A stretch of 64,000 nucleotides of DNA from positions 992,001-1,056,000 of the forward strand of contig NC_089392.1 of the NCBI RefSeq assembly GCF_003171515.1. The letters are read 5' to 3'. Below the pieces are notes generated by a model that saw nothing but the letters and a program-made list of their open reading frames with translations, ran no database searches and had not been told where the DNA came from. The position numbers and the translations under genes were made by a program. Of this stretch, positions 45,323 through 52,819 are shown in pieces. Source of the stretch: Pyrenophora tritici-repentis (taxonomy: Eukaryota > Ascomycota > Dothideomycetes > Pleosporales > Pleosporaceae). Numbering within the stretch: the stretch's first letter is position 1; every line of letters begins with the position of its first letter.

Positions 45323-46529
45323 AATCTCTACACATACATCGAACACCAACTTTTCGAGATGACAAAAAGGTCCTGGATTACCCTTTTTTCATCTCAAATC
45401 TATTAAAATGCCTTCCTAGAATCAGTTTCCAACGCCTGTTTCTGCGTGCAGGCGTTGTGGCGGGCGCGCTGGCCGCTGCAACTTTGACAGAGTTGTGACC
45501 TGGCCTTAGTTGAGAGAAATCTCTGCAAGTGGTCCGTGCGCCAACTGATTTTAGATGTTCGATCGAAGGCACCCTATACGAAATCGACAGAGCAACGGCT
45601 CTTCCTTAGGTATATAGTCTTACTGCTGTAAAGCAATAGGTCTATATATCTAGACGTCATCTATAACCGAACTCCCCAAACCGACACGATATACCGACCC
45701 CCTATACCGAACCGCTCTAGCACCTGCTGTAGTTCACCAGCACACTCACGAGCAAACTATCGACAAGGCAGTAGATGTATAGATCTACTATGATTGTAAA
45801 TAGATCCCTGTATACAATTGCCTACACCACCGAACGCCCTGTGAGGGACGTCAATAGTTGAGATGACCGTATCTGTATTAAGTACTAAGTGAGATATTGC
45901 GTGCAGGTTCGAAGACCTGCGCGGGTCGAACTTTGGTGTTCGGCTGTGGCCTTCGCTTAAGGCGCACGGGCCACCTCGCTTACTAGAGGTCGCGGGTTTG
46001 ATCCATGACACGCCCTACCCACCGAACGCTCCTAACCATTCGATATACCGACCCCTATACCGAACCACAAACCATACAAACCACTTACAAGCACTGGCTT
46101 ATAAGTATACAAACAAAAAACTAATGAACAGAGAGCTACTATATAACATTAGTACTCTCCGTGCCTAAAGAACACATATTTTACTTTCCTTTGTCATAAG
46201 AGCCCGCTGCTACATCTCTTTCTATTGTTACGGATCCATAGCCCCCATATCGATAAGATCCTTATCTTATCGGACTAGCGCCTTGGCGCCCACAGCATAA
46301 GTTCGGGCTCACAACGTAGATAGCTCGATAGCTTGTATCTTGTCAAATCCAATCTTTCTTGTGTTACGATTACAAGGAGGAGAACAAGCAACAACGGCAG
46401 GACAACGTTGAAGGCAGGGCACAGCGGGTAAGCTCGTGCCGCGCAGTCACGTGACCTGCCCTCCAGGCTTGGCAACACCTCCCAGTGTATCCATGGAGGG
46501 CGTTGACCTCCATGGATACGCTGGCAAAT

Positions 46530-46668
46530 GGGTCGGGGTGTGGTTGGGGTTGGGTTAGAAATTTTGCGACCCCAACCCAACCCCAACCCATTTGTCAGCG
46601 CCAAGCTTAGGGTTGGGTTGGGGTTGGGTTGGGGTCGCACGGACCATGGGTTAGGGTTGGGTTATAGT
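46530..46668. repeat. Left subterminal G-rich array of hAT7
   Basis: Repeated GGGTTGGGGTTGGGTT units, including a palindromic join of G-rich and C-rich halves near 46570-46590 and one GTCGCACGGACCATGGGTTA segment. The right end holds the complementary array with three copies of the same segment. Probably transposase-binding subterminal repeats. Confidence 0.75.
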
Positions 46669-46828
46669 AAAAAAATTGCAAGATGTATAATATAGATTTC
46701 AATAAAAGAAAAGTTTATATAGTATCACAGTAGATTAACACAGTGTAGCATTAACTAGTTTCATTTATAATATACAGAGGCTTCGCCAGCTAGCATTTAA
46801 GCACGTGTATCTAGATATATCTTATAAT

Positions 46829-47401
46829 CTAGAGAAAAGCTAGTAACTCGCGCGCAAAGTAGCGCCTAGCCAATTGAGAATCCTTCTCTTGAATAGTAAC
46901 CCTCTTTGCGTGAATAGCATTGATGTTGCAGTCTATAAAAGTTATTAAATGAAAAATAGTATAGGGTAGATAGACTATACCCTCAAAATAACCAACTAAG
47001 AAAGCTTCTGTAGCTTCCTGAAGAGCTTCGATTGCAGATCGTTGAAAGCGGATATCGGCCTTGTGCACCTGTGCAAATTCGCGCACTACGCGGGAAAAGG
47101 GGAGTTTTCGCAAGAGTAGTTCAAAACCTCTCTGGTATCTCTTGATTTCCCGTAATGCGACAGCTAAGCTAAATTAGAAAATAGCTGTGATAAACGACTG
47201 TGATAACCTACTGCCGGCCTTAAACTTGCGCTTCTTCTTAACAGCTACAGGTGCCTTTCGCGTAGACTTTCCTGCTACTTGACGTCTAGCCTTACTAGCA
47301 AGGGCCTTCTGAGCCGGCTTGCCGCCAGTAACTGTCTTGCCATCAGGACCACCCCGGCCGGCTTTACCGGTGACCTTAGGCCGTGGTTTTGTCCTTGCCA
47401 T
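46829..47401 (-). CDS. Divergent histone H3 carried by hAT7, 3 exons
   Basis: Exons 47401-47212, 47163-46981 and 46932-46829 join to 158 codons. The tail begins [15 protein letters not shown] and includes [20 protein letters not shown], longer than the canonical H3 tail by about 20 residues. The fold domain is clear: [69 protein letters not shown] and KDSQLARR. Loop 1 has normal H3 length, so it is not a typical CenH3. The C-terminus continues [10 protein letters not shown] instead of IRGERA. Both introns (48 bp each) restore H3 codons exactly; the first holds the paired TTATCACAG motif. It would act as a nucleosomal H3 variant if expressed. It was probably captured from a host and then diverged. 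Confidence 0.93.
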
Positions 47402-47911
47402 TGCGTAGTAGAGTAGATGATGAACGTAGGCGACGTATGTGATTAATTACTGTGATAAATGTGGTCGACAATTAAGAAAGTAGTAGGCTGAAAGAGTTAG
47501 GTAGCTGGAAAGTTTGGGCGACGGCAATTTCCCGATTTCCGCACTAGTAAAGGCAGCAGCGCACGGACTGCATGACGTAATTTGCTGTTTCACGATCGCA
47601 TACAACCATTTCTGTTGCAAAATCAGTAGCGAGCATATCATACAAACGTGTTAAACTGCTGTGATAAACGCCGAGCTCGCGCATGCGTGCAGCCCAAAAA
47701 TGAAGGAATCATCGATGTGTTGATCATTTTGGGTAATTTCCGCGTTTTCGCGCTAGCGCAGGCAGCAGCGCACGGACCATTTCTAGGTGAGCATAATGCT
47801 GTCTACCCATTTCTCCAGCCCCTGACGCCCAGTAACTCCCAACACCTAATAACTCTCTTTACTACATTGAAAACACCCCATTTACAACAGCGCATTATCA
47901 CAGTCCCCGCC
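47402..47911. promoter_or_regulatory. Shared intergenic region of the two hAT7 passengers
   Basis: The divergent promoter region. It holds a direct repeat of about 50 bp (47513-47571 and 47728-47780, both ending GGCAGCAGCGCACGGAC) and several TTATCACAG-type motifs (complement at 47438-47459 and 47647-47669; plus strand at 47894, just before the ATG at 47912). Confidence 0.5.
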
Positions 47912-49115
47912 ATGCCTGTCGCGAAAGAGCAAGTCGGCGACGTACCTGAAGGCCTAGTTCCAGCCATCAAACTTGAACCTCCGCCTGGGTTCGAACAAGA
48001 TGAGTGGGAGCAGCTTACCGATGTAATAATCACAGCCATTTATCACAGCTTATGCTAATATAAGCAGGGATTTGCGTGTGAAGCTGACGAGATTGACGGT
48101 ATCTTAGATCAAAGAGGTAGTGGGGGTTCACGAAAAGGCCGACCTATCAATTTGAGCGTCCCCTATACTGGCTCTCTGAGTGGTAGCGCCCGTGCTATTG
48201 CTCAACGTGAACGCAAAGCTCTTTTCGATAAAGAGGAGAAGGTACTTGAAAGCGTTAGAACAGCCGACCGCTCCGCGAAGTACCAACTGAAGAAATCGCT
48301 TTTGCAACAGCCTAAGTATAAATTAGCAAATAGTGCTAGACAGGCTAAGCTGCTAGAGAAAGAGTGGGATATACTTTCAGAGAAGCGGTTTACCCAGAAA
48401 AAGTCTGGTAAGTTATCACAGCTGCTTATCATAGACATCTGCTAATAGACTATAGCTGAATGGCTAGAGACAAACCTAACTCATGTGCATCGTAAATGGG
48501 ATGCGATCACTAAGCAGGTGGATATGAGAAAACACGAGATCACGATTGCGAAAGTGCTTAGCAAAGATGACAAGCCCACCCATGACATTAGTGGTAGAGG
48601 AATAGCAAGAATTTACGGCTCAGGTGGTGTTTTGCAAAAGATTCTTCGAAAGACCTATCAAGAAGGATTAGCAAAGCTTAACAACAACGACTTTGAGAGC
48701 AAGGAGGCTAAGAGAGAGTTTGAGAAGTTCGTGGAGGAACTTACACCTGATGAGATGAAAGTCGTAACTGATAATGACTGGCAGTAAGTTTATCACATCC
48801 TTTTATCACAGAGATACTAATATAATAAGGCAACGGGAGCCACCTAGCATTCTCGACTTACTTGGTGACGCTGATATTGAGCTGGAGGGTGATAAGCCGT
48901 ACGTTAAAGGTGACGATAGCGATGAGTGTGAAGAAGAGGTTGACTATGACTCTGATCTTGAGGAGCATTTCAATTCACTTGAAGACGAGTACGAGGATGA
49001 CGACCAGTGGGCTGCTGTACAGAAGCAGGCAGCGCTTGAGGAGTCTGAGGAATCTGAGGACTCTGAGTTTGAGGGGTTTCCGGATTCTGATGCCGCTTCT
49101 GAGTCTGATAATTAG
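47912..49115 (+). CDS. Acidic-tailed coiled-coil protein of hAT7, 4 exons
   Basis: I do not recognise a family. Exons 47912-48022, 48065-48407, 48456-48783 and 48830-49115 give 355 codons in one frame. I chose the ATG at 47912 (MPVAKEQVGDVPEG). After a Pro-rich start there is a Lys/Glu-rich helical middle (RERKALFDKEEKVLESV, KYQLKKSLLQQPKYKLA). Then a conserved-looking block (DISGRGIARIYGSGGVLQK) and a strongly acidic C-terminus (DDSDECEEEVDYDSDLEEH, EESEESEDSEFEGF) follow. Acidic tails are common in histone chaperones, and the neighbour is an H3, so a chaperone-like role is a speculation. All three introns carry the paired TTATCACA motif and CTAAT branch sites. The first acceptor could be TAAG or CAG three bases on. 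Confidence 0.75.
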
Positions 49116-49464
49116 AGTTTTAGGCTAAGACACTTTCAAGCATTGAGGGATAGTAAGCAGTTATCACAACCAATTAACACGGATTATTGCGCCATATAAT
49201 CTTAACTTAAGATTGTGATCTGTCATTTATGCAGATTAATATCCGTGCACTCCTGACGATCTCTGTGTTTACTATGAGGCATTAAAAATGATATTCCGCT
49301 AGTAATATGCCAAGGTTTCAAGTTAAATTACAGGCGTCATAGCGCAAGCAAAGCTGAGAGGAGCGTGAGAAGCCTTGAGTCCTACATCCAAACTTAAACT
49401 TCTCAACTTTTTCCTATTGTGTGCTACTACTATTAATGCCTTATTCTACTACTTTCTAGAAGCG
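49116..49464. other. Spacer between hAT7 passenger and transposase
   Basis: No gene. Contains a GTAAGCAGTTATCACAACC...TTAACACGG stretch (49153-49181) that looks like the 5' half of the element's introns. Confidence 0.4.
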
Positions 49465-52111
49465 ATGGACATAGCTGCACAGTCTATTGAGCTTATGCCT
49501 AATCCTACTAATATTGAATTTCCGGAGGACCTCAACTGTTTAAAAATCAATTCTCCACAGGTTACAAAGGGGGGTGACAGGAGAACGATTGGATTAGTGA
49601 AATATCCAAATAATCGTTTTCTGCAAGATTATAGTGTAAGTGAGATCTTAGGGACATGGACAGCGTCGTGGAGTAATACTAGCTGGGGTATAAACCCTAA
49701 AAATGATAACCCACGATGGAACTCTCCTACTCGCTATGGCACAGTATGGTTACGATTTGGAGAAGCTGCTGAGCTTCGAACTGGCCACCCCTACGTGTTC
49801 TGCTACAACTGTAGTCTTGCACTCCAGCATCCAAATCTAGGTGGTATTGGGACAAAGCACCTTATTACTCATCTTAAAACAAAAAGCTGTCGAAATGTCC
49901 TTACTCCTATTCATAATGAGGCAGACTTATCGGCCTCTACTCTATCCCAACGTCAACAAAGAAACAGTACTTCATCAATACCAGCTTACACTACTACTAC
50001 CTTTGAAAAGGAGCTTGTACGGGTAGTAATCGACAGCAACTGGTCATTCCGAACAGTTGAACGACCATCTTTCCATCGATTTCTTCGGTTCCTTCGACCA
50101 GATACTGTGATAATTAGTCGTTGTAAATTCAAGACGATATTCAAGAGTCAACATGAGGAAGCAAAAAGGTCTATCCTTCGAGATCTTGGAAAATCAACAA
50201 AGATCTCAATCGCCTTAGATGCCTGGTCTGCAGCTAATCACCTCTGCTTTCTTGCGGTAAAGGGTTACTACATTAACAAAGACTAGAAACTTCAGGAAAA
50301 GCTACTTGACTTTCTCCCTATGCGCGGCAGGCACACCGGTACTTCTATAGCAGACGAGGTACTGCATATTCTTCTGGATACAAAGACCAAAACCCAGCTT
50401 CTAGCTATTACTTGTGATAACGCTAGTAACAATAGCGTACTTGCTCGCACTCTCCAGTCTAAACTCCAAGAAGTCGACATTCAGTGGAGTGCCAGAGAAA
50501 ACACTATCCCTTGCCTTGCCCATATTATCAACCTCGTTGTCCAGGATATTATCCAACACCTTCGGCTAGCAGCAACTACAGAGTTAGGAGCAAGGGATAC
50601 CCTACAGAGACGTCATATACAGGACATTGAGACGCATATTTCAGTCCCAAATTCCCTTCGCAAGGTATTTCGCTTTTAACACATTCATTTATCACATACT
50701 AATAATAGACTAGATAAGGGCGATTTGTATCGCTATTGACGTATCACCTCAACGCTTTGAGCGGTTTATTGCGGTACAACAACATCTACCGCCAAAGGGG
50801 CGATTATCTGTTATCCGCGACGTGAAAACCCGATGGAACTCAACATACGACATGTTAGAGCGCGCGCTCAAAATCCAAAAATATATTGATGAATGGCTTA
50901 AACAAGAAATCTTGCTAAGGCCAGGTAGTCACCTGGATAGCTCTCTAGACAACAATCAAATGGCTGAGATTGATTTCCGGGATCTTAAACGCCTCCGCTT
51001 ATCTTCGACTGAGTGGCATCATCTCGAACTCGTTACTGAGATGCTTAAACGGTTTAAAACAGCAACTAGCTTCCTCAGCCAGAACGAGAAGCCCCAGATT
51101 CAGTATATTTGGTTAATGTACAATCGACTGTTTGATTTCTTGGACAAAATGTCAGAGGACCTAGATGAGGATGAAGAAAATCAAGATGATAGGGAATGGC
51201 TAGACGTAGTACGAGCTGCAGCTGACAGGGGTCGTCTAAAACTGAGCAAGTACTATTCGAAGACAGACGCAGAACGTGGGTTCTTGTTTAATTGTGCCAC
51301 TATCCTTGATCCAACGCAGAAGCTTACAGCATATGAAGTATGATTATCACAGCTATTTATCACAGTCACGCTCTAATTACGCTTATAGGACGATTCATGG
51401 GAGCCACAGTACAAGCATCTCTACCGAGGCCAATTTCTTGCTTACCTTGATCGTTATGATAATACGGACGGGAGAGGTTCAACCCCAGGCTCTAGCATAG
51501 TCAAAAGGAGGTCACTTGGGAATGAGTGGTTCAGAAAGCCAGCTCCTCCCCCTACATCAGCGTTAAACAGCTTTTCTTCCCAGAACTCTTCACTAGTAGA
51601 ATCAGACAAGACAACTGGCCCAACCCGCCAAGAAGGAGAGTCCTACCTTAGTACTGCCTGTGTAATGACAGATGACTCTTTCGATATTCTAGAGTGGTGG
51701 AAGACGAACGAGCCTACCTACCCACGACTATCCCAAGTGGCGAAGGATATACTAGCAATACCAATTGCTCAGGTTGGGGTTGAAAGAGTTTTCAATGTTG
51801 CTAAGGATGTTATTGGTAGTCGGAGGCACCGACTATCTGCCCGGACAATACAGCAGATAATGGTTCTTAAGGATACAATATCTCAAGAGGAAGAACAGGG
51901 TCTAGACTACCTAGTTGCTCAATTAGGGGAGGATGGAGAGCCAATTGACGAGGTTAATGATCTTTTTGAGCTTCCAGCCTCGTTAGAGCATACCTTCGAT
52001 ATAGATGAGGAGAACCAGACTACAGAAGAAGAGTCGGAGGAAGAGGTCCAGGAGGAGCGTCAATTGCCACCTCGAAAGCGCCAGCGTCCTCAGCGCTACC
52101 GTGATAATTAG
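49465..52111 (+). pseudogene. hAT7 transposase, one in-frame stop, two introns
   Basis: ATG at 49465; longer readings start with TTG. Exons 49465-50664, 50714-51337 and 51389-52111 are in register. The BED finger (CYNCSLALQHP...HLITHLKTKSC) is followed by the core motifs KISIALDAWSAANHLCFL, LLAITCDNASNNSV and NTIPCLAHIINLVV. The hATC domain is in the third exon (AKDILAIPIAQVGVERVFN) and an acidic, basic tail ends it. A single TAG at 50284-50286 stands where Trp is expected (DWKL). It is far from hAT1-6 and closer to plant Ac/Tag-like and restless-type transposases. Both introns have the TTATCACA pair. If the stop is real, this copy needs help in trans. Confidence 0.88.
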
Positions 52112-52207
52112 CTGTGTTAATATATCTCGTTTTATGTATCTACTATATCATCAACGTGTACACATTATCTTAATTAAGTGTTGTTCCGTTAAAGTACCCA
52201 AAAAATA

Positions 52208-52376
52208 TAACCCAACCCCAACCCAACCCAGCCCAACCCAAGCCCAACCCTACCACTTGGTCTGTGCGACCCCAGCCCAGCCCTAACCCATGGTCTGTGC
52301 GACCCCAACCCAACCCTAACCCATGGTCTGTGCGACCCCAACCCAACCCCAACCCAAGACTGGGTATACCCAACCC
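52208..52376. repeat. Right subterminal C-rich array of hAT7
   Basis: CCCAACCCCAACCCAACCC-type units, with three tandem copies of about 33 bp beginning TGGTCTGTGCGACCCCA (52259-52357). It is the inverted counterpart of the array at 46530-46668. Confidence 0.75.
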
Positions 52377-52819
52377 ATTTGCCAGCGTATCCATGGAAGG
52401 CAAGGAGGGCAGACCTCAACATGGAGGGCACACTCACTATATAATAGTAGGCAATGAGCCCTTACGGTTCATTGTGTTCAACTTCGAAATCTAAGGATTA
52501 GTACTTGATTCTCAACTCCCCGTATATTACATCGATCTACCAATCGTGCTATACACCCTCGTGTCCATCGCATCACTCTATCCCCGAGAACCAACCCAAG
52601 ATCATCTTCGGACGACCTTCACATCTTGATCGATCCCTCACATCTATTCACCAAACTGCTCTTTAGCACCAGGCACTAGCTAGATACTCGGTATCTAGCT
52701 AGAAGCAAGCCTAAACTGCCATAGCCAAACAAACACCCAAACTGTACGATAAACAAAACCAGATAGAACGGCCTCCGGCCCAGTCCTACATAGTCTCTGA
52801 CTGAAAAAGGACTCAAATG

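Follow-up and report, generated by a model that had tools for sequence, protein, structure and literature searches.

The window analysed here is a 64-kb stretch of the Pyrenophora tritici-repentis genome (40.9 Mb), and it contains a hAT transposon with a histone H3-like gene (H3L), a central gene and a transposase gene (Table 1). The element carries the terminal inverted repeats of the hAT superfamily, is flanked on both sides by its target duplication, and encodes a transposase with a Dimer_Tnp_hAT domain (Pfam PF05699, E 2.1e-20). A related element-free site elsewhere in the genome (C2:5051209-5051428, L061) matches both flanks with an 8-base overlap, which confirms the insertion and the target duplication. 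The element is the already known histone-H3-carrying hAT of this species (Manning et al. 2013, PMC3538342). The available part of that report describes a ~5.6-kb form, which carries the transposase, the central frame and H3L, and also a short form, matching the forms and gene set seen here. It differs from our description in that the same part of the text leaves the paired motif unmentioned and refers to introns only in an EST figure legend, without naming which. In protein searches the closest proteins to those of the element were from P. tritici-repentis.

There are 11 full or nearly full copies in the genome, the window copy included, one of which (L019) has 95% identity and bears RIP-like substitutions (C to T and G to A). 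The transposase frame of the window copy is interrupted by an in-frame stop that is shared with one other copy (L015). The remaining nine full-length copies have no stop at that place, and some may therefore be intact. A further 22 copies are short, with element bases up to ~1937 joined to those from ~5210, and both pieces were present in 18/18 short loci examined. Both ends of the element are full of telomere-like G-rich repeats (TTGGGGTTGGG and its complement), which may be the real end-recognition sequence.

The three genes have seven introns of 45-51 bp, and their splicing is supported by the annotated proteins P0001, P0023 and P0052, which skip them. All seven begin with GTA, as the first-pass annotation had stated; its lengths of 42-51 bp were slightly too wide, and the CTAAT branch site that it gave for the introns in general is found in six of the seven, the same six that contain the paired motif.

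Table 1. Features of the element, in window coordinates
Feature	Position	Strand	Evidence or remark
hAT transposon	46517-52389	+	tips TACGCTGG...CCAGCGTA; 8-bp target duplication TCCATGGA; limits common to copies
G-rich repeats, left end	46530-46665
Pair 1	46722-46743	+	left end, inward-pointing, 205 bp from tip
H3L, histone H3-like gene	46829-47401	-	Pfam Histone 8.3e-32; reading frames; annotated protein P0052
H3L intron 2	46933-46980	-	without pair, without CTAAT
H3L intron 1	47164-47211	-	with pair 2
Pair 2	47185-47206	-	inside H3L intron 1
Pair 3	47437-47458	-	36 bp upstream of H3L ATG
Pair 4	47646-47667	-	midway between divergent H3L and central gene starts, ~245 bp from each
Pair 5	47882-47903	+	immediately before central gene ATG; first half-site with two mismatches
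Central gene, 354 codons	47912-49115	+	three introns, pair in each
Central gene intron 1	48023-48067	+	with pair 6
Pair 6	48027-48048	+	central gene intron 1
Central gene intron 2	48408-48455	+	with pair 7
Pair 7	48413-48434	+	central gene intron 2; fits P0021 and P0022; decayed in relic L056
Central gene intron 3	48784-48829	+	with pair 8
Pair 8	48790-48811	+	central gene intron 3
Pair 9	49161-49182	+	between central gene and transposase
hAT transposase gene	49465-52111	+	two introns, pair in each
In-frame stop	50284-50286	+	window copy and L015
Transposase intron 1	50665-50713	+	end from annotated protein P0023; end 50718 also used in scans
Pair 10	50676-50697	+	transposase intron 1; fits P0033 and P0034, core only P0037
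Transposase intron 2	51338-51388	+	with pair 11
Pair 11	51344-51365	+	transposase intron 2; fits P0033, P0035 and P0039, core P0038; P0037 one mismatch
Pair 12	52099-52120	-	right end, spans transposase stop codon, inward-pointing, 269 bp from tip
G-rich repeats, right end	52210-52375

A rigidly spaced pair throughout the non-coding DNA

We identified 12 pairs of the form TTATCACAG-N4-TTATCACAG in the element, each a 22-bp site made of two head-to-tail 9-bp half-sites that point in the same direction. The regularity is greater than first described: the half-site starts are exactly 13 bp apart in 12/12 pairs, and the spacer, initially given as 3 to 7 bases, is always four. Within the spacer, position one is C or T in 12/12 pairs and position four is A or T in 11/12. 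The weakest pair is the one at 47882, both of whose mismatches fall within its first half-site. Using a fixed definition, with at most one mismatch to TTAWCAC in each half and lags of 8 to 40 scanned, we found 11 pairs at lag 13 as compared to a shuffle mean of 0.09 and maximum of 2 (300 shuffles); every other lag gave one pair or none. Exact TTAWCAC half-sites occur 22 times in the element, 18 in ~1,759 non-coding bases and 4 in ~4,114 coding bases (gene boundaries used in this count are off by up to ~30 bases), and one of the four coding half-sites belongs to the pair at 52099. The exact 9-mer TTATCACAG occurs 11 times in the 64-kb window, in all cases inside the element.

Six pairs are intronic, four lie upstream of start codons and one is near each end. 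All places listed in the first-pass annotation were recovered to within 1-2 bases, both those near the 5' end of H3L intron 1, the three central gene introns and both transposase introns and those outside coding sequence at about 46722, 47438, 47647 and 49160; the list had missed two pairs, at 47882-47903 and 52099-52120 (minus strand). Pair 9 may lie inside a leader intron that, by eye, starts with GTAAGC near 49154.

Nine interior pairs have one clear neighbour gene and all nine are in its sense (0.004 two-sided, by simple arithmetic), and the pair is close behind the donor in six of the seven introns. Both patterns could be expected if the motif acted in RNA, as a splicing or retention signal or as a leader element in the sense transcript. 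We consider this unlikely: both end pairs run antisense to the genes next to them, the tenth interior pair (47646) is equidistant from two divergent starts, pairs 3, 4, 5 and 9 may lie outside the transcripts, and H3L intron 2 does without a pair. The presence of pairs outside introns and near both ends favours a site that is read in DNA.

The pair is confined almost entirely to this element. A genome-wide search with the strict pair gave 56 matches, 53 of them within element copies, and a reversed-pattern control gave none. Counted over the whole genome, this speaks against the motif being equally common in unrelated introns, the observation named at the outset as refuting. By eye, two of the three strict pairs outside the element are beside or in pogo-like transposase sequence. 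Pairs with TTAACAC as the first half have one of the element's two spacers in 44/45 cases (control, 1). The single 9-mer matches 423 times as compared to 193 for the reversed pattern; element copies explain ~264 of the 423 (10 x 11 + 22 x 7), and hence there is no excess in host DNA. Nine other well-kept full copies have the same pairs with few single-base differences, and L019 has lost several half-sites. The short form lacks four of the pairs and has nevertheless multiplied to 22 copies, and thus these four are dispensable in cis for movement when full copies are present.

This distribution also bears on whether the half-site is a host transcription factor site, for example of the GATA type, driving the element's genes. 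CTGTGATAA contains TGATAA, a GATA-type consensus, 18/24 half-sites contain TATC (GATA on the other strand), and pairs do occur upstream of start codons. However, 6/24 half-sites (TTAACAC and TAATCAC, for example) break GATA and keep CAC, the paired site is nearly missing from the rest of the genome, and the intronic sites would have no explanation. A host site of this kind is therefore very unlikely.

Introns and pairs in related elements

By protein search, six further species have a conserved homologue of the central protein, at 38-65% identity; they include P. teres (65%), P. seminiperda (50%), Boeremia (42%), Exserohilum (41%) and Parastagonospora (38%), and homologues of the transposase were found as well. 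Some of the homologue entries, most of which derive from metagenomes or read archives, look like unprocessed frames with translated introns. In relatives at 41-67% protein identity these introns are at the same places as in the element, indicating that the introns are old. Not every relative shows an intron: P0013 reads straight through all three intron places and may derive from a spliced transcript.

The extra peptides allowed the pair to be looked for in the relatives, which were read as peptides fitted to degenerate codons and not as DNA. Peptides that fit the pair are SGKLSQLFITG (P0021) and SGKLSHYIITV (P0022) at central gene intron 2, LFITYIYHM (P0033) and GFITGFYHI (P0034) at transposase intron 1, and LLSQLFITA (P0033), MFITVYYHS (P0035) and RYHSYLSQL (P0039) at transposase intron 2. 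Ten retained introns were picked by eye for a test with the full 9-mers at lag 13, leaving out a two-residue remnant in P0034 as too short; seven fit with zero mismatches, one with one and two with two, and the frames are mutually related and hence not independent. For six of the seven perfect fits, 0 of 2,000 shuffles fit, and for the seventh one shuffle did. P0011 and intron 2 of P0037 have no zero-mismatch fit and were counted all the same; in P0037 intron 1 the core fits and the full 9-mers have two mismatches.

With P0038 added, the seven-base core fits 9/11 retained introns at lag 13. Elsewhere in the scanned range of 9 to 18, one of the 11 fits at each of lags 10, 11 and 16 and none at the remaining lags. 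Among 2,000 shuffles, 0 to 36 did equally well for the nine fitting introns; the two non-fitting introns had 95 and 133. As a control, the best full fit in the rest of the same protein had 4 mismatches in P0021, P0022, P0035 and P0039, 3 in P0011 and 2 in P0034; it had 0 in P0033 and 1 and 2 in P0037, where the remainder still contained the other retained intron. In the same genome, a short decayed related element (L056, G000:C7:2005500-2011500; 71% DNA identity over 328 bases) retains a decayed pair of its own, likewise at lag 13, in central gene intron 2. Judged from these peptides and the relic, the pair appears to be the part that is kept inside the homologous introns of relatives.

The age of the introns weighs against one of the two explanations first proposed, namely that the introns descend from a single multiplying, pair-bearing unit in the manner of introners. 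Six introns do share donor, pair and branch site in the same order, the best alignments between introns cover 32-42 bases of 45-51, with H3L intron 1 and transposase intron 2 76% identical over 42 bases (E 1e-5), and the positions of the H3L introns differ from that of the host H3 intron. The mutual similarity of the introns is, however, mostly that of donor, pair and branch site, and by eye the stretches from pair to branch and from branch to acceptor look dissimilar between introns. The pair also occurs at six non-intron places, and the genome-wide search for strict pairs did not find it spread through many host genes. In the available text on introners (PMC9860276), several introns likewise share sequence; the introns here are old and common to relatives, occur in one family, and have a motif that also lies outside them. 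An introner-like origin is accordingly hardly credible. Since relatives appear to keep the pair in the same introns, it would be a working address label and not a leftover of self-copying introns. Intron interiors usually diverge freely, and a rigid 22-bp site retained in the homologous introns of distantly related elements would make transposon introns carriers of cis sites.

Candidate readers of the pair

The other explanation first proposed, in which the motif is a binding site retained all along the element, agrees better with the data; the binder is a candidate, and action in DNA rather than in RNA is putative. We tentatively favour, as the leading candidate and at somewhat less than even odds, an array of 22-bp cis sites scattered over the element and read in DNA by an element-encoded protein; such an array would mark or regulate the element as a whole. 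An element-encoded binder is favoured by the restriction of the pair to this element family; it would most likely be the central protein, or else the transposase zinc finger acting as a regulator, with a host factor as a less probable alternative. The sites would occupy the non-coding space, including the very short introns, such that the entire element is marked, and a dimer or tandem binder on the pairs could keep the three genes expressible, either by regulation or by anti-silencing. Each of these steps is putative: binding in DNA, the protein that would bind, and the outcome of binding. Against this array stand the 9/9 sense orientation, which would not be needed if the array simply bound a protein in DNA, and the two of 11 retained introns that do not fit.

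The likeliest functional parallel for the element's pairs is with the anti-silencing targets of VANC proteins, and membership in that system would go beyond likeness. According to the available parts of two reports (PMC5735166, PMC10398659), the motif arrays targeted by VANC21 of Arabidopsis lie in the introns of VANDAL21 and in its non-coding DNA between genes and at the termini. In those texts the VANC21 and VANC6 targets are, as here, a short motif in the non-coding DNA of one family with extra genes, and the accumulation of the present motif in non-coding DNA, introns included (18/22 half-sites; 12 pairs), agrees with this. VANDAL elements belong to a different superfamily and kingdom, and their motifs are fast-changing tandem arrays, whereas the element has fixed and seemingly conserved pairs, a point that also counts against the favoured reading. 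Targets of VANC differ between related families; here the same core pair fits relatives at 41-67% identity at the peptide level. A Pfam search of the three element proteins and the central-protein alignment gave no match to a VANC-like domain. We found no paper on this motif in a literature search judged by titles and the beginnings of abstracts. If an element-encoded reader exists, the self-addressed regulation described for VANDAL elements of Arabidopsis would also operate in a fungal hAT.

The pairs might also be ordinary sites for the BED finger of the hAT transposase, used in end recognition or transpososome assembly and present in extra internal copies. One pair lies by each end and the two are inverted towards each other, and by eye the N-terminus of the transposase has a finger-like C-x2-C...H-x3-H...C pattern. 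In the available part of a report on Hermes (PMC10368747), BED fingers read short repeats, all hAT transposases are said to carry a BED finger, and the subterminal repeats, 17 at one end and 14 at the other, are concentrated towards the tips. Hermes resembles the present element as a hAT transposon in which a short motif occurs many times, including at the ends; the present motif differs in being mostly interior and in introns, longer and rigidly paired. Ten of the 12 pairs are interior, and even the two end pairs lie 205 and 269 bp inside the tips. A Pfam search of the transposase did not return a BED domain, and the short form reached its copy number without four pairs. These considerations make it unlikely that the pairs are ordinary transposase sites.

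The central protein and the H3 variant

The favoured candidate for an element-encoded reader, the central protein, gave no recognised family or fold in family and fold searches. It is predicted to be mostly helical, GR[PK] is present in 12/12 homologues examined, an AT-hook-like [KR]GRP in 10/12, and those homologues whose sequence extends to the C-terminus have an acidic tail, strongly so in the central protein. For the histone, we compared the H3L protein with seven relatives chosen from 120 listed rows. The exact ARKS context at K9 is missing in 8/8 of this set, with a lysine still aligned at position 9 in 6/8; ARKS at K27 is retained in 2/8, and TGGK at K14 is identical in 8/8. The element's own H3L lacks the ARKS contexts of both K9 and K27 and has TGGK (K14).

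In its boldest version, the proposal is a self-addressed anti-silencing system in which the central protein would read the pairs and load the element's own H3 variant, so that its nucleosomes resist heterochromatin marking; the introns would be retained to carry the tag, and the parts of the protein concerned would be the AT-hook-like motif, the helical body and the acidic, chaperone-like tail. This version is quite unlikely. If an element-encoded reader does exist, it would offer a testable reason for the histone H3 variant and the conserved central gene of this lineage. Within the H3L set, linkage of H3L to the transposon is established here for the window element only; neighbouring locus tags at the CFE70_001393/001394 locus, on a contig of equal length, suggest that the H3L-like and central genes are linked in P. 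teres too.
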